Below are positions 731-8,957 of a stretch of DNA of 64,000 nucleotides, in pieces (positions within the stretch are counted from its first letter, which is position 1; each line of letters opens with the position of its first letter). The notes beneath the pieces were generated by a model, which was not told where the DNA came from, did not search any database, and saw only the letters and a program-made list of their open reading frames with translations. This DNA is from Halosimplex salinum (GTDB taxonomy: Archaea; Halobacteriota; Halobacteria; Halobacteriales; Haloarculaceae). The stretch covers positions 186,001 through 250,000 of the forward strand of contig NZ_QWGG01000005.1 in the NCBI RefSeq assembly GCF_003730195.1, in the 5' to 3' direction. The position numbers and the translations under genes were made by a program.

Positions 731-3373
731 ATGACAGACGACACACACGACGACGCGGAATCGACAGCCGACCAGACAGCGGCCGACGGATCGACTGAGG
801 AGTCGGCCGACCTCGACCCGGCGACGGCGGTCGAGACAGAGGTCCTGGACGCCGAGGACGTGCCCGAGGACGGCCTCGCCTCCATGGACCGCCGGGACTA
901 CATGCAGGCGATGGCGGCCGCGGCGGCGATGGCGGGGCTCGGGAGCGCCGCGACCGGGAGCGCGGCCGCGGAGACGGCCGACACGTCGAAGACGGTCGAC
1001 GAGCGCATCGAGGAGCACCGCACGGGGGACCTCGAGGTCGTCGTCGAGAACTCGGACGGGAGCGCGGTCTCCGGCGCCGAGGTCTCGGTGGAGATGCGGG
1101 AGCACGACTTCGGCTTCGGGACGGCGGTCAACGCGAACACGCTGATAAACAGCTCCAGCGAGGGCGACAACTACCGCGAGTACATCCCGGAACTGTTCAA
1201 CAAGGCGGTGCTGGAGAACCGCCACAAGTGGGACTTCTGGGAGAACGAGCAGGGACTGGCCGACCAGGCGACCGAGTGGATACTGGACCAGGGCCTCGAC
1301 GTGCGCGGGCACGTCTGCATCTGGGGCCGCGAGGACGTGGCGGCGATCCCCTCGGACATCCAGACGGCCATCGACAACGGGGACGAGCAGACGATCCGCG
1401 AGCGGTCGATGCAGCACATCGAGGACATCATCACCCACTACGGCGAGGACATGACCGAGTGGGAGGTCGTCAACGAGGCGATGCACACCTACCAGCTACA
1501 ACTGGGTGTGTACGGCGACCAGATCGACACCGACGAGCCGTGGACCGGGGACGTCGTCCCGTGGACCTCGGACCTGCTCGCCGACTGGTACGACCAGGCC
1601 GAGGCCGTCATCGAGGAGAACGACCTCGACGTCGGCATCGCGGTCAACGACTTCAACCAGTTCCCCTACGACTACACCGACCAGCGCTACCGGACGGAGA
1701 TCCAGCACCTCAACGACAACGCCGTCCAGCTGGACACGGTCGGACTGCAGGCCCACGCGGCCGCGCGGACGGGCGAGTTCAACACGAACGACAACCCGGA
1801 CGGCCGGATCAGTGCCAGTCAGGTCGCCGAGGAGATCAACAAGTGGGCAGATCTGGGCGCCCGCGTCAAGATCACCGAGTTCGACATGTACAACGGCGAC
1901 GACTGGAACGGCCAGGAGGAGCGCGCCGACGTGATGGAGAACTACCTCAAGGGCGCGTTCTCGCACCCGGGCGTCGACGACTTCATCATGTGGGGCTTCT
2001 GGGACGGCCGCCACTGGGAGAACGAGGCGCCCCTGTTCTTCCAGGACTGGTCGCAGAAGCCGGCCTACGACGTGTGGACCGGGCTCGTCTACGACGAGTG
2101 GTGGACCAACGACAGCGGCACCACCGACGACTCGGGCACCTACTCCACGAGCGGCTACCTCGGCGAACACGAGATCACCGTCAGCACGGACAGCGACTCG
2201 ACGACGACGACGACGGCCGAGCTGACGGACCCGTCGGGGACGACGACGGTGACCGTCACCGTCGACGGCGACGGCGGAGAGGTCGATACGCAGCCCCCGA
2301 CGACGCCGTCGAACCTCTCGGCGACCTCGACCACCGACTCGACGATCACCGTCTCGTGGGACGCCTCGGAGGACAACGGCACCTCGGGGCTGGACCAGTA
2401 CGTCGTGTACGTCGACGGGTCGCAGGACCAGACGGTCGGCGCCGGCATGACGACCGCGACCGTCGAGGGACTGTCCGCCGACACGAGCTACGACGTCGCC
2501 GTCTCGGCGGTCGACGGCGCGGGCAACGAGTCCGACACGGCGACGGTGTCGGCGACCACGGACCAGTCCGACGACGACTCCGACGACAGCGACGAGTCCA
2601 CCGGTGACGGCCTCGTCGTCCACGAGTTCGACGGCGGCAACTACCCCGGGTCGAACGACCTCGGGAACTGGGCGGACGGGGGCTCCTTCCAGAACGGCGC
2701 GGGCGAGGTCTCCGACGGCGCGCTCAGGCTGGAGTACGACAACGCCGGCTGGATGGGGTCGAACGTCACGCAGTCGGTGGCGGACCGGCCGACCCTGCAC
2801 TTCCGGGTCCGCGGTGACTCCGGCGGCGAGGAGAGCGACTTCACCCTCCAGATCGGCGGCGCGACCGACCTGCTCGCCGACGTCACCGACGACACCATCG
2901 GAACGAGTTACTCGACGGTGTCGGTCGACCTCGAGGCGATGGGCGCGGACCTGCAGAATCCCCAGTCCGTTCGACTGAACTTCTGGCAGGGCGCCTCCGG
3001 CGCCGTCGAGATCGATCGCATCAGTTTCGGCGGTGACGGCTCCGGGAGCGGTTCCGACGGTTCGGACGGCAGTGACGGTTCGGACGGGAGCGACGGCTCT
3101 GACGGCTCCGGGAACGGCAATCTGATCGCGGAGATGAACCCCAGCACGACGGAGGCGTCGGTCGGCGAGCGGGTCACCTTCGACGTGACGGACACGACCG
3201 ACAGCGACAACTGGATCGACTCGCTGGAATGGGAGTTCGGCGACGGCGGGACTGCCACCGGCTGGTGGGCGGAGCACAGCTACGAGTCGGCGGGGTCGTA
3301 CACGGTCACGCTGACCGCGACGAACAACGAGGGCGCTACCACCACCGACGAAGCCACGATCACGGTCTCGTGA
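731..3373 (+). CDS. Secreted GH10 endo-1,4-beta-xylanase with FnIII, CBM-like and PKD modules
   Basis: An 880-residue exported xylanase that would cut internal beta-1,4-xylosidic bonds. A Tat-type signal (MDRRDYMQAM then an Ala-rich stretch) lies unusually deep, with the twin arginine at residues 54-55 behind an acidic leader. The GH10 barrel spans about residues 85-460: acid/base Glu249 lies in WEVVNEAMH and nucleophile Glu383 in KITEFDMYN, the expected spacing for this family. A fibronectin III domain follows (about 515-610), then the CBM-like module shared with neighbouring genes (about 628-765), a Ser-Asp-Gly repeat linker, and a PKD-like domain containing WEFGDGG and GWWAEHSY (about 797-880). 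It lies 38 bp after the preceding gene and 40 bp before the next. GH10 assignment is firm; exact substrate is inferred. Confidence 0.93.
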   Translation: MTDDTHDDAESTADQTAADGSTEESADLDPATAVETEVLDAEDVPEDGLASMDRRDYMQAMAAAAAMAGLGSAATGSAAAETADTSKTVDERIEEHRTGDLEVVVENSDGSAVSGAEVSVEMREHDFGFGTAVNANTLINSSSEGDNYREYIPELFNKAVLENRHKWDFWENEQGLADQATEWILDQGLDVRGHVCIWGREDVAAIPSDIQTAIDNGDEQTIRERSMQHIEDIITHYGEDMTEWEVVNEAMHTYQLQLGVYGDQIDTDEPWTGDVVPWTSDLLADWYDQAEAVIEENDLDVGIAVNDFNQFPYDYTDQRYRTEIQHLNDNAVQLDTVGLQAHAAARTGEFNTNDNPDGRISASQVAEEINKWADLGARVKITEFDMYNGDDWNGQEERADVMENYLKGAFSHPGVDDFIMWGFWDGRHWENEAPLFFQDWSQKPAYDVWTGLVYDEWWTNDSGTTDDSGTYSTSGYLGEHEITVSTDSDSTTTTTAELTDPSGTTTVTVTVDGDGGEVDTQPPTTPSNLSATSTTDSTITVSWDASEDNGTSGLDQYVVYVDGSQDQTVGAGMTTATVEGLSADTSYDVAVSAVDGAGNESDTATVSATTDQSDDDSDDSDESTGDGLVVHEFDGGNYPGSNDLGNWADGGSFQNGAGEVSDGALRLEYDNAGWMGSNVTQSVADRPTLHFRVRGDSGGEESDFTLQIGGATDLLADVTDDTIGTSYSTVSVDLEAMGADLQNPQSVRLNFWQGASGAVEIDRISFGGDGSGSGSDGSDGSDGSDGSDGSDGSGNGNLIAEMNPSTTEASVGERVTFDVTDTTDSDNWIDSLEWEFGDGGTATGWWAEHSYESAGSYTVTLTATNNEGATTTDEATITVS

Positions 3374-3413: not shown

Positions 3414-5027
3414 ATGACGTCAAACGACACGCCACGAACGGAACGAGACGACGAACAGCCACGCGACGCGGCGGCCGACGGCGACACGGGCCGACTCCCC
3501 TCACCGGAGCGACGGACCGTCCTGCAGGCGGTCGGCGGGGGGGTCGCGCTCGGCGCTCTGGGCACGCTCGGCGCGCAGGTGTCGACCGCGACGGGCGCCT
3601 CCTTCGGCGACGGGGTGAACCTCCAGCCGTCGTACTTCTGTAGCGGCGACCAGGAGCTGGGGTACGACCTGATGACGGACTACCCCGACATCGAGACGGT
3701 TCGCATCGAGATCGAGCCGTTCTCCTTCGACGAGGTCGTCACTACCGTCGAGGACGCCAAGCGCTGGATCGACGAGGCCGCGGCGGCCGGGCTGGACGTG
3801 ATCGCCACGTACCACCACTACCCGGACAACGGGTCGGCCGAGGCCTCGGCGCTCCAGAACGCGGCCGACTTCTGGGCCGAGCACTACGAGACCCTCTCGC
3901 AGGACACCTCGTTCACCGTCAACATGATGAACGAGTGGGGGAACCACCAGGTCTCGGCCGAGGAGTACGCGTCGGCGTACAACGAGGCGATCAGCACGGT
4001 CCGCGAGCAGACGAGCTACTCTGGACCGATCGTCTGCGACGCTCCCGGCTGGGGGCAGGGGACCTACCGGCTCGCCGACGCCGCCGAGATGATCGACGAC
4101 GACGACCTGATCCTCTCCGCGCACGTCTACCCCAGCGCGTACAACGCGACGACTGGGCAGTCGCTCGTGCCCGAGGACCTCGACGTCCTCGACGAGTCGG
4201 AGTATCCGTGCATGATCGGCGAGTTCGGCAACTACGCCAACAGCAGCGGCGCCGACTGGTCCGCCATCGTCGACTACGCCAGCGACCTGGGCTGGCCGGT
4301 CATCGGCTGGGCCTGGAACGGCGACGGCTCGGACGACCCGATGAACATGGCCGACCCCTACTGGGGCGACGACTGCAGCGCCGACTCGTACACGACCAGC
4401 GACTACTTCAGCGTCGTCTACGAGAAGCTCGGGAGCAACCAGACGCGGACGACTCCGACGACGGACGACTCCACCGACGAGCCGACCCCTGAACCGACCG
4501 ACGAGCCCACCGACGAGCCGACACCGGAGCCCACCGACGAGCCGACCCCGGAACCGACGGACGAACCGACGTCTACCCCCGATTCGACGCCGACGGACGC
4601 GATGGTGGTGAACGACTACGACGGCGACCCGGCGTGGTCGTCCCACCGCAACGACCTGGGCCGGTGGTGCGGGGCCGGTTCGTTCGAGAACGGCGACGGC
4701 GAAGTGCAGGACGGTGCGCTCGTCCTCGAGTACGACAACGGCGGCTGGTACCAGGAGCAGATACTCCGGGACGTGAGCGACTACTCGACCGTCGTCCTCC
4801 GGCTCAGCGGCGCGAACGGCGGCGAAGAGGACGAAGTGCTGTTCGGCATGGGCGGCGTCCGCACCGTGCTCTCGAACGTCACCGACGACTCCGTGGGGAC
4901 GAGCGCGTCCGACGTGCGTATCGACATGGAGGCGGCCGGGATCGACCGGTCGTCGCCGTCCGTCCGCCTGAACTTCTGGCAGGGCGGCAGTAGCACGCTC
5001 GAGATCGAGGAGGTGCGCCTCGAGTAG
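3414..5027 (+). CDS. Secreted GH5-like glycoside hydrolase with C-terminal CBM-like module
   Basis: A 537-residue exported enzyme. The Tat signal begins at ERRTVLQAVGGG (twin Arg at 33-34). The catalytic domain (about residues 60-345) has clan GH-A signatures: Glu174 in NMMNEWGNH as likely acid/base and Glu270 in CMIGEFGNY as likely nucleophile, matching GH5 mannanase- or cellulase-like enzymes of compact size. A TDEPTPEPT proline linker (about 350-390) leads to the shared CBM-like module beginning AMVVNDYDGD. That module is almost identical in DNA to the one at the window start. It would attack beta-mannan or beta-glucan; the sequence alone does not decide which. The gene is 40 bp after the xylanase and probably in the same transcription unit. 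Confidence 0.85.
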   Translation: MTSNDTPRTERDDEQPRDAAADGDTGRLPSPERRTVLQAVGGGVALGALGTLGAQVSTATGASFGDGVNLQPSYFCSGDQELGYDLMTDYPDIETVRIEIEPFSFDEVVTTVEDAKRWIDEAAAAGLDVIATYHHYPDNGSAEASALQNAADFWAEHYETLSQDTSFTVNMMNEWGNHQVSAEEYASAYNEAISTVREQTSYSGPIVCDAPGWGQGTYRLADAAEMIDDDDLILSAHVYPSAYNATTGQSLVPEDLDVLDESEYPCMIGEFGNYANSSGADWSAIVDYASDLGWPVIGWAWNGDGSDDPMNMADPYWGDDCSADSYTTSDYFSVVYEKLGSNQTRTTPTTDDSTDEPTPEPTDEPTDEPTPEPTDEPTPEPTDEPTSTPDSTPTDAMVVNDYDGDPAWSSHRNDLGRWCGAGSFENGDGEVQDGALVLEYDNGGWYQEQILRDVSDYSTVVLRLSGANGGEEDEVLFGMGGVRTVLSNVTDDSVGTSASDVRIDMEAAGIDRSSPSVRLNFWQGGSSTLEIEEVRLE

Positions 5028-5182
5028 GGCACGCTCACACCCGTACCCCTTCGGACGCGTCTGCCCGACGCGTCGAGTTCGCAGATCCGGCCGTAGTTCC
5101 TGTCCGGCGAGGTTTGCGTATCGAAAACTTATTTTTACTATTCGTTAATTTTATAATTTATCAGGTGTACGTGTAATCTGCA
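5028..5182. promoter_or_regulatory. AT-rich promoter upstream of the gene at 5183
   Basis: This 155-bp gap changes from GC-rich to very AT-rich over its last 70 bases. A TATA-like element, tttataattta, lies at 5150-5160, about 23-33 bases before the ATG at 5183. That spacing is what a leaderless haloarchaeal transcript needs, so the gene at 5183 probably has its own promoter and does not depend on read-through from the xylanase genes. No Shine-Dalgarno sequence is visible. Confidence 0.65.
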
Positions 5183-7036
5183 ATGGTCGATAGACGAACG
5201 TTCCTGAAAGGGGGAATCGCATTCGGTAGCCTGGGGCTGGCGTCGACAGTCCTGGGGCAGGAGTCGGCGATGGTCGTCCACGAGTTCGACGGTGGCAACT
5301 ATCCCGGGTCGAACGACCTCGGGAACTGGGCCGGTGCCGGGAGTTTCGAGAACGGCGACGGCGAGGTCTCCGACGGCGCGCTCAGACTGGAGTACGACAA
5401 CGCCGGCTGGTTCGCGAGCAACGTCTCGCAGGCGATCACGGACTACCAGTACCTCACGCTCCGCGTTCGGGGGGACGAGGGCGGCGAGGAGTCGGACTTC
5501 CGAATGAAGATCGGCGGGACGGAGGCGCTCCTCTCGGAGCTGACCGACGACAGTATCGGGACGGAGTGGTCGACGGTGACGATAGACCTCGAAGCGGCCG
5601 GCGCCGACCTGGAGAACCCGCAGGCCGTGCGGATGAACTACTGGCAGGGCGCGTCGGGCGCAGTCGAGTTCGACCGGATCGCCATCACCGGCGACCCCGA
5701 CGACGTGGGCGGAACGCCGACGGACGAGCCCACCGACGAGCAGACGCCGACGACAGTTCCACCGACGGACGAGCCGACCGACGAGCCGACGGACGAACCC
5801 ACGGACGAACCCACTGACGAGCCGACCGACGAGCCGGGTGGCGGCGCGGACTGGGACGTGCCCTTCCCGGACCGGCCGCCGGAACCCGACACGCTCCCGT
5901 CCGCGTCGGAGATCACCGAGAGCACCACGGTCGCGGAGCTGTACGAGCACTTCGACGACCCGTACTACGTCCCGCGGAGCTTCCTCGACTACCTGCCCGG
6001 CGAGACCGGGTCGAAGAACCAGGAGTGGACCGACTCCCAGAAGGCCGAGGAGTTCGACTACGACGTGAGCGCGGTCGAGAGCAACGTCGGAGACGGGTCG
6101 CTGACGCTCGGGGAGCTCGGCACGCAGGCGCTCCCCTACGTGAAACAGCTCGCCGAGGAGGACTTCCCCGCGCACGCGACGGTCAAGCTGCTCCCGCGGC
6201 TGGCGCTGTTGCCCGACGAGGAGGAGGACCCCGGCACGCACGACGAACCGTCGACGGTCTGGGACGAGACGGCCGGCCCGACGGCGGCGACCAACGACCC
6301 GGACCAGCTGATCCAGGACCGCTGGCCGACGGACGCGCGGACCTACCAGCCCGACGAGGTCCGCGTGCGCGACCGCGCCCACGACCAGCCCGAGTACGAC
6401 GACAGCCGCGAGTGGGGCAGTTCCGGGTCGCTGCCGGACTCCGTCTACGACAACCCGGACAACCCGGTGCTCGACGCCGCCACGGACAAAGTCGACCCGG
6501 TGACGGGCGATTCGCTCGGCGGTGACGGTTTCACCGCGAACGCGCCGATGGAGGCGGAGATCCGCATCCACGAGACCGGCGGCGGGTACCTCAACCAGTA
6601 CATCAAGCTGAAAAACACCAGCGCGGTGCCGTACTTCCAGGACGCCGCGGTCATCTGGTGGCTGGGTCCGTCCGGCGACGCCGGGAACCTCTCGGACGGA
6701 CACTGGAACAACCCACACCGCCCGAGCGCGTCGCTGGGCCACCCCCAGCGCGACGTGATCGAGGTGAACCACCCCGACTACGACGACATGTCGGTGTACG
6801 CGGTCCGCCTGGCCAACCACGACGAGCCCTACCACATGCGGACGATCTACCCCGGTCAGAGCGTCGCCATGGAGATCGGGACGCCGCGCGACGGGAGCGC
6901 GTGGTCGACCAGCGCCGAGCGCCAGGACCTCGTCGACACGATGCTCGACTCCCTGCACGTCGAGATCGAGACGGACCTGGACAGGAACGACGACGTCATC
7001 GACGCGATCGACCTGAAGTACCGGGTCCCCAACTGA
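5183..7036 (+). CDS. Tat-exported protein: N-terminal CBM-like module plus large domain of unknown family
   Basis: A 617-residue protein. It starts with a short Tat signal (MVDRRTFLKGG, ending near VLGQ at about residue 28), then the shared carbohydrate-binding-like module (about 30-170), placed at the N-terminus and not the C-terminus as in its neighbours. A TDEP-repeat linker (about 178-222) separates this from a 395-residue acidic C-terminal region I do not recognise. That region has conserved-looking stretches such as IRIHETGGGYLNQYIKLKN, DAAVIWWLG and EPYHMRTIYPGQ, rich in His, Trp and Tyr. No GH5 or GH10 catalytic motif is present. Location among polysaccharide hydrolases and the binding module suggest a polysaccharide-active or accessory role; the activity is unknown. 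Confidence 0.85.
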   Translation: MVDRRTFLKGGIAFGSLGLASTVLGQESAMVVHEFDGGNYPGSNDLGNWAGAGSFENGDGEVSDGALRLEYDNAGWFASNVSQAITDYQYLTLRVRGDEGGEESDFRMKIGGTEALLSELTDDSIGTEWSTVTIDLEAAGADLENPQAVRMNYWQGASGAVEFDRIAITGDPDDVGGTPTDEPTDEQTPTTVPPTDEPTDEPTDEPTDEPTDEPTDEPGGGADWDVPFPDRPPEPDTLPSASEITESTTVAELYEHFDDPYYVPRSFLDYLPGETGSKNQEWTDSQKAEEFDYDVSAVESNVGDGSLTLGELGTQALPYVKQLAEEDFPAHATVKLLPRLALLPDEEEDPGTHDEPSTVWDETAGPTAATNDPDQLIQDRWPTDARTYQPDEVRVRDRAHDQPEYDDSREWGSSGSLPDSVYDNPDNPVLDAATDKVDPVTGDSLGGDGFTANAPMEAEIRIHETGGGYLNQYIKLKNTSAVPYFQDAAVIWWLGPSGDAGNLSDGHWNNPHRPSASLGHPQRDVIEVNHPDYDDMSVYAVRLANHDEPYHMRTIYPGQSVAMEIGTPRDGSAWSTSAERQDLVDTMLDSLHVEIETDLDRNDDVIDAIDLKYRVPN

Positions 7037-7166: not shown

Positions 7167-8957
7167 ATGTCACACGACGACACGACGAGCGAACCGACTG
7201 ACGAATCGACTACCGGTCGCGCGAGCACCGCCTCTCGGCGGGGGTTCCTGCGGGCCGCCGCGGGCGCGGGCGCCGCGACGGCGCTCGGCCTCGGCGTCAC
7301 CGGGAGCGCCGCAGCCGACGGCATCCCGACGCCGTGGCTCCACCGCGACGGGAACCTCATCAGGGACCCGAGCGACAACAAGGTGCTCCTCCGCGGGGTC
7401 AACGTTCCCGACCCCAAGCGGATGGACACGAAGGACTTCCGACCGGACGCCGACGAGACCATCGCGCGCGCGACGAACGAGGACGACAGCTGGTACTCGC
7501 GGATAATCCGGCTGCCCGTCCAGCCCGTCGACGTCGGCGACCACGGCACCGGCTCCATCCCGCCGGTTCCCGGCTTCGACAGGAGCCAACTGGAGAGTTA
7601 CGTCGAGAATCACCTTCGGCCGGCCGTCGACGTCTGCGCGGAGCGGAACGTCTACTGCATCGTCGACTACCACCGCCACCGCGGCGAGGACGACGAACAC
7701 GCCTACGACAGCGAGGGGATCGACGACGAGTTGACGATGTTCTGGGAGACGGTGGCCCCGGAGTTCGCCGAGGACTCGAACGTCCTCTTCGAGGTGTACA
7801 ACGAGCCGATCCACCCCTTCCAGGGCCACTACGAGCCGAACGTGGACGTCGCGCCGGACGACGACGAGGCCATCGAGACGTGGAACACGTGGAAGGAGGC
7901 GGCCCAGCCGTGGGTCGACACGATCCGCGATCACGCCCCGCGGAACCTGATCCTCGTCGGATCGCCGCGCTGGAGCCAGTGGACCTACCAGGCGCCGCGA
8001 AACGAGTTCGACGGCGACAACCTCGCGTACACCGGCCACGTGTACGCCCACGAGAACCTCCGGCCGCTCTCGAAGTACTTCGGCGAACCGGCCGAAGAGG
8101 TGCCGGTGTTCGTGACGGAGTTCGGCTGGGGCGAGAACGGCGCGAACTACCTCACGGGCACCGCCGATGTCGAGGGCGAGCAGTTCGTCGAGTTCTTCGC
8201 GAACCACGACGTCCACTGGCAGGTCTGGTGTTTCGACAGCAAGTGGTCACCGGCGATGCTCGACCACGACTGGTCGATCAAGGAGTACGGCGAGTTCTGG
8301 CGGGACGAACTCGCCGCACACCGCGACGACGACGTACCGTCGGGCGACGTGGAGACTGACACGGACGCCCAGACGACCGTCGCCAGCACCGCGACGCCGA
8401 CGCCCACGTCGACCGACGAACCGACTCCCACGCCGACCGACGAACCGACTCCCACGCCGACCGACGAACCGACTCCCACACCGACGGACGAACCGACGCC
8501 GACGGCCACCCCGCCGGCGGACGCGATGGTGGTCAACGACTACGACGGCGACCCGGCGTGGTCGAGAAACCGGAACGATCTGGGTCAGTGGTGCGGGGCC
8601 GGCTCGTTCGAGAACGGGAGCGGCGAAGTCGAGGACGGCGCCCTCGTCCTCGAGTACGACAACGGCGGCTGGTACCAGGAGCAGATCAATCGGTCGGTCG
8701 AGGAGTATTCGATCTTGGTCCTGCGGGTCAGCGGCGCCAGCGGCGGCGAGGAGTCGGAGATACAGTTCAGCATGGGCGGCGCGAGCGGGATGCTCGCCGA
8801 CGTGACGAGCGATCCGATCGGGACGAGCGCCGGAGACGTGACCATCGACATGGAGTCGGCCGGCGTCGACCGGTCGTCGTCGTCGCTGTCGCTCCGTCTG
8901 AACTTCTGGCAGGGCGGCAGTAGCACGCTCGAGATCGAGAGCGTTCGACTGGAGTAA
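7167..8957 (+). CDS. Secreted GH5 endoglucanase-type hydrolase with C-terminal CBM-like module
   Basis: A 596-residue protein starting at the ATG at 7167, chosen because it gives a standard Tat leader (twin Arg at 24-25 in SRRGFLRAAAG, cleavage after about residue 50). The GH5 domain (about 52-385) has Glu213 in FEVYNEPIHP as acid/base and Glu318 in VFVTEFGWGENG as nucleophile, with the family's upstream GVNVP motif. A linker of TDEPTPTP octapeptide repeats (about 415-450), encoded by near-perfect 24-bp DNA repeats at about 8411-8490, joins it to the shared module beginning AMVVNDYDGD. It probably cleaves cellulose or another beta-1,4-glucan. It is the last gene of the + strand hydrolase island and resembles the GH5 enzyme encoded at 60680-62350. 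Confidence 0.9.
   Translation: MSHDDTTSEPTDESTTGRASTASRRGFLRAAAGAGAATALGLGVTGSAAADGIPTPWLHRDGNLIRDPSDNKVLLRGVNVPDPKRMDTKDFRPDADETIARATNEDDSWYSRIIRLPVQPVDVGDHGTGSIPPVPGFDRSQLESYVENHLRPAVDVCAERNVYCIVDYHRHRGEDDEHAYDSEGIDDELTMFWETVAPEFAEDSNVLFEVYNEPIHPFQGHYEPNVDVAPDDDEAIETWNTWKEAAQPWVDTIRDHAPRNLILVGSPRWSQWTYQAPRNEFDGDNLAYTGHVYAHENLRPLSKYFGEPAEEVPVFVTEFGWGENGANYLTGTADVEGEQFVEFFANHDVHWQVWCFDSKWSPAMLDHDWSIKEYGEFWRDELAAHRDDDVPSGDVETDTDAQTTVASTATPTPTSTDEPTPTPTDEPTPTPTDEPTPTPTDEPTPTATPPADAMVVNDYDGDPAWSRNRNDLGQWCGAGSFENGSGEVEDGALVLEYDNGGWYQEQINRSVEEYSILVLRVSGASGGEESEIQFSMGGASGMLADVTSDPIGTSAGDVTIDMESAGVDRSSSSLSLRLNFWQGGSSTLEIESVRLE

Follow-up and report, generated by a model that had tools for sequence, protein, structure and literature searches.

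An undescribed haloarchaeal protein domain encoded beside cellulase and chitinase genes

The gene at 5183–7036 and its surroundings

The window, a stretch of 64,000 nucleotides from Halosimplex salinum, contains a forward-strand gene at 5183–7036 that, by its ORF coordinates and sequence, encodes 617 amino acids plus a stop codon; coordinates, length and reading frame were given correctly in the preliminary description. The closest annotated record of the protein is a "hypothetical protein", and the nearest named relatives of the window genome are H. carlsbadense and H. pelagicum with 89–90% identity. On the same strand the gene is preceded by one for GH10 with fn3, CBM-X (see below) and PKD domains (731–3373) and one for GH5 with CBM-X (3414–5027), and it is followed by a second gene for GH5 with CBM-X (7170–8957).

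The protein starts with MVDRRTFLKGG. Residues 1–26 (5183–5260, + strand) form a putative Tat-type signal peptide with the sequence RRTFLK and without a lipobox cysteine. This N-terminus fits the twin-arginine signal proposed earlier, and RR is found in the printed N-termini of homologues; the Pfam model TAT_signal scores below threshold only. Since Tat export is the norm for haloarchaeal secreted proteins, the signal is barely informative on function. Residues 30–167 (5270–5683, + strand) form a binding module, here termed CBM-X, that is indeed common to the neighbouring proteins. Its other copies, including those of the GH10 and GH5 neighbours, lie at 261–683, 2612–3025, 4602–5018 and 8526–8948. 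No confident match to CBM-X was found in Pfam or the PDB (best CBM60, E 0.13), and the module looks like a CBM family of its own, so far undescribed, from cellulase clusters of haloarchaea. A Thr/Pro/Asp/Glu linker with PTDEPTDE repeats and a variable lead-in follow (residues 168–243; 5684–5911, + strand).

The remainder is the orphan domain, with a core of ~375 residues (244–617; 5912–7033, + strand) delimited by conservation among homologues. Residue 222 had been proposed as its start, but the conserved core begins nearer 244, where the chitin-type relatives described below start; these lack the lead-in. The reported richness in His, Trp and Tyr is above average but not extreme: their share is 9.6%, versus a median of 5.6% for window genes (96th percentile) and of 7.4% for the genes of 40 related loci (84th percentile). 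More unusual is the proline share of the protein (99th–100th percentile). Low-confidence AlphaFold2 models (two runs, four close sequences from the window and L027–L029, pLDDT 38) predict a helical N-terminal and a strand-rich C-terminal half of the domain.

Upstream of the gene, an AT-rich region of leaderless type (5120–5182, + strand) contains the TATA-like sequence TTTATAA at 5150–5156, ~30 nt before the ATG. The AT-rich block (...TTATTTT...ATTCGTTAA...GCAATGG) is kept 5' of Halosimplex homologues of the gene, which likewise show a TATA-like element ~30 nt ahead of the start codon, and less closely at L010/L012. Both features support the leaderless promoter that had been assigned to the gene. 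The block was rejected as a genome-wide regulon motif (4 sites versus 2 control sites).

At a related locus (L075:8043-8762 / L075:6557-7969), the gene directly upstream of the orphan gene encodes CBM-X joined to a dockerin-like domain of type I; such a domain is also part of a GH5 of this locus. Cohesin matches were obtained in eight of ten tested carrier genomes (G046, G064, G196, G210, G230, G231, G399 and G417), and none in the window genome or G074. The dockerin and cohesin matches hint at haloarchaeal assemblies that resemble cellulosomes.

Relatives of the orphan domain and their genomic context

Searches of Pfam, NCBIfam and PDB sequences with the window protein, with alignments of 25 to 30 members and with the C-terminal half alone gave no credible match, and no known structural or non-enzymatic domain emerged. 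Against PDB sequences, neither single-sequence nor profile queries returned anything better than E 0.19, and all family members together yielded scattered sub-threshold noise only in Pfam and NCBIfam. The same Pfam scans clearly recognized GH5 and GH10 in the neighbouring genes. As stated in the preliminary description, the orphan domain is devoid of GH5 and GH10 motifs: neither Cellulase nor Glyco_hydro_10 nor any other Pfam or NCBIfam model matched, and GH18 profiles and catalytic motifs are likewise absent. The Pfam scans also gave no match to CBM families, the N-terminal module being a separate unit. Judged by its sequence, the domain is an undescribed haloarchaeal family. By secretion signal, binding module and co-location with GH genes, the protein falls into the functional class of substrate-targeted CAZyme cluster proteins, a class that is not based on homology.

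A profile search detected the family in 40 of the 391 Halobacteria genomes sampled and in 20 of 86 genera, nearly always as a single copy per genome (416–706 bits). Relatives share 36–91% identity with the window copy. Phylum-wide sampling revealed no member in the sampled genomes outside Halobacteria, and among the viral contigs, phages and plasmids searched the only relative is on the Halocatena salina megaplasmid.

Two architectures occur. The orphan domain is found either with or beside CBM-X near GH5/9/10 genes, or with CBM5/12-PKD near GH18 chitinase genes. At the 19 cellulose-type loci the protein carries CBM-X or, in three cases, stands alone beside CBM-X proteins; at the 21 chitin-type loci CBM5/12, PKD domains or both are part of the protein (for one, the gene call is truncated). 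G399 (L079/L080) and G044 (L065/L066) possess one copy of each kind. In a tree of the domain alone both types are separated by one branch with a support of 99, so that a single substrate switch suffices.

Homologues do lie beside carbohydrate genes. When 20-kb stretches around 40 copies were compared with 20 controls taken elsewhere on these contigs, a GH5/9/10/18 gene was present within ~10 kb in 32/40 loci versus 0/20 controls; eight loci have no GH nearby. GH5/9/10 genes occur in 17 of the 19 cellulose-type loci, whereas chitin-type loci contain GH18 (15/21) and never GH5/9/10 (0/21). Accordingly, Pfam assigned 24 GH5, 9 GH10 and 4 GH9 among 71 proteins adjoining cellulose-type copies, and 29 GH18 and 35 CBM5/12 among 95 adjoining chitin-type copies. 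Every one of the 22 genomes that have a chitin-type copy encodes GH18 somewhere, versus 28 of 369 others, although the sampled genomes are related and such association statistics overstate independence. The binding module attached to the orphan domain tracks the substrate of the neighbouring GHs. The data support a tie of the domain to polysaccharide breakdown in both the cellulose/xylan and the chitin systems of haloarchaea. Since chitinase clusters are also served, the plant polysaccharides named in the preliminary description are too narrow a substrate scope.

Genes for S8 (subtilisin-family) peptidases were found near chitin-type copies at L069, L070, L074, L076, L080–L082, L084, L085, L092 and L097, suggesting a joint attack on protein-chitin material, e.g. 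arthropod cuticle. The order GH18-GH18-S8 peptidase in L081–L085 resembles Natrarchaeobius chitinase clusters (PMC12343721); the part of that account considered here does not discuss the orphan protein. On the cellulose side, growth on amorphous cellulose was shown for Halosimplex carlsbadense, which carries the domain (L027), and the Halococcoides strain HArcel1 is specialized on cellulose (PMC10267330).

In one subclade on the chitin side a plastocyanin-like cupredoxin is fused to the protein (L071:9477-12647 and L072:7346-10519). These copies come from different taxonomic families, and both have five PKD domains with the cupredoxin located between PKD domains. The Cys-x-x-His-x-x-x-Met motif (type 1 copper) is intact in both; the Pfam cut-off is exceeded in L072 only. 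By its sequence the cupredoxin hints at electron transfer, and it may stem from a single fusion event.

Conserved residues and putative activity

In an alignment of 41 sequences the invariant residues of the orphan domain cluster in its C-terminal half. Three histidines and one glutamate are invariant in 41/41 sequences: His520 of the GHPQRD motif (HPQRD at 6740–6754), His546 of the motif His-Asp-x-Pro-Tyr-x-x-Arg-x-x-Tyr-Pro-x-Gln (6818–6859; family form H-x-x-P-Y-x-x-R-x-x-Y-P-x-Q), and His592 and Glu594 of His-Val-Glu (6956–6964; family form H-x-E), all on the + strand like His463 (6569–6571), which is conserved in 40/41. The C-terminal residue Asn617 is invariant as well. A look for His/Asp clusters across homologues, as had been advised, thus revealed clusters of His, Asp, Glu and Arg. 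In general, conservation is much commoner for His, Trp, Asn, Gln and Arg than for Asp, Glu, Ser or Leu. The share of invariant His (4/12 versus ~1 in 6 columns overall) is suggestive only. The three invariant histidines together with the glutamate suggest a metal site. Among 17 proteins with both units, invariant H/D/E/R/K/N/Q residues make up 10.4% of the orphan domain versus 2.9% of the binding module (p 0.004); in a comparison within the same loci, the invariant polar share is 5.2–9.5% for GH18 and 7.3–7.6% for the orphan domain. A density above that of the binding module and on a level with GH18 points to a functional site rather than to a simple surface for binding.

We propose that the orphan domain is an auxiliary enzyme, probably dependent on a metal, that is targeted to its substrate and acts on insoluble beta-1,4-glycans. 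This is a tentative assignment to which we give a probability of about 0.45 and in which catalysis and metal are both inferred. The secreted protein would be held on the insoluble beta-1,4-linked polysaccharide by an exchangeable binding module. His520, His546, His592, Glu594, Tyr550, Tyr556, Arg523, Arg542 and Arg553 would form the catalytic site, with a metal as cofactor. By opening or modifying the surface of the polymer, this site would enable adjoining endo-hydrolases to work. The domain would act in the manner of a lytic polysaccharide monooxygenase (LPMO) on both chitin and cellulose, but it is not an LPMO itself. An oxidative chemistry with copper is favoured but unproven. The restriction of the cupredoxin to one subclade, the eight loci free of GH genes and the models with a pLDDT of 38 count against this proposal. 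It is doubtful whether the orphan domain founds a new family of polysaccharide oxidases, dependent on a metal that is probably copper and unrelated to all LPMO families, with which haloarchaea would attack crystalline chitin as well as cellulose.

The preliminary description left the choice between an undescribed polysaccharide-active enzyme and an accessory factor, which our data support; that the domain is catalytic, and not a helper without activity, is still an inference. It is possible, though less likely, that the domain is a large polysaccharide-binding or surface-disrupting unit that holds or loosens the substrate in an expansin- or tapirin-like role. Such a unit would be expected to show the genomic surroundings and the exchange of modules seen here, it would agree with the single substrate switch in the tree, and it would need no known catalytic signature, which the domain lacks. 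However, the many invariant charged, His, Asn and Gln positions, denser than in the protein's own binding module and GH18-like, argue against it, and in most members the protein already includes a module dedicated to binding.

An undescribed GH family, e.g. a chain-end or crystalline-surface hydrolase with its acid/base among Asp397, Asp524, Glu527 and Glu594, is unlikely. The acidic residues mentioned are conserved, size and modular architecture are typical of GHs, and the gene usually resides within GH clusters. Yet conserved acidic residues are few (2/51 Asp, 2/30 Glu), no GH profile was matched even at E up to 1–10, and a single site would have to handle cellulose/xylan and chitin alike. 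Xylan and chitin are both acetylated polymers, and this together with the invariant His, Asp and Glu residues and with GH10 genes in 20 of 21 cellulose-type genomes would suit a metal-dependent deacetylase or esterase for acetylated xylan in one clade and chitin in the other, but the lack of a Pfam polysaccharide deacetylase match and G041, where the domain adjoins GH5 genes in a genome without GH10 or GH9, make this quite improbable.

The breakdown of insoluble cellulose and chitin by haloarchaea has been described as almost unexplored (PMC10267330). Current CAZyme searches overlook the orphan protein. As one conserved family alongside both archaeal degradation systems it is a direct, testable candidate for a missing helper activity and, if catalytic, would be a salt-tolerant helper of practical use.

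Comparison with known systems

AA10 LPMOs (PF03067) are secreted and often CBM-fused, and this one family has chitin- and cellulose-directed members. The orphan family is like them in secretion, CBM fusion and the presence of a chitin and a cellulose side. In contrast, sequence and profile similarity is missing, and the orphan domain is about twice as large. No Pfam match to LPMO_10 at E<=1 was found in 25 family members, and hhalign of the orphan domain versus AA10 gave a probability of 0.2%. The domain also has no mature N-terminal His1 for a histidine brace. Since signal, module and linker precede it, a free N-terminal His is impossible unless the domain is cut out, whereas genuine haloarchaeal AA10s (L100–L105, six genomes) begin with HG and possess His1. 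An AA10 LPMO is ruled out by the lack of both profile match and His1. AA10 is rare in the class, with any PF03067 match in 7/391 genomes. LPMO_10 is missing from 36 of the 40 carrier genomes, including the window's own, in which no PF03067 match exists, and a true AA10 is present in the other four (4/40). The idea that the orphan domain simply replaces AA10 is weakened by these four carriers, which own both.

With their His/Asp metal site, CE4 deacetylases would act on acetylxylan as well as on chitin, a span that the orphan family would share; the Pfam models for them (Polysacc_deac) do not match the orphan domain. Expansins, tapirins and other non-catalytic cellulose-active proteins would be alike in a helper role beside hydrolases, but none of their Pfam profiles matches the orphan domain, which in addition has dense invariant polar residues. 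The neighbouring GH5, GH9, GH10 and GH18 enzymes have catalytic domains unrelated to the orphan domain, whereas in the kinds of their binding modules, in secretion and in their clusters they are like the orphan protein.
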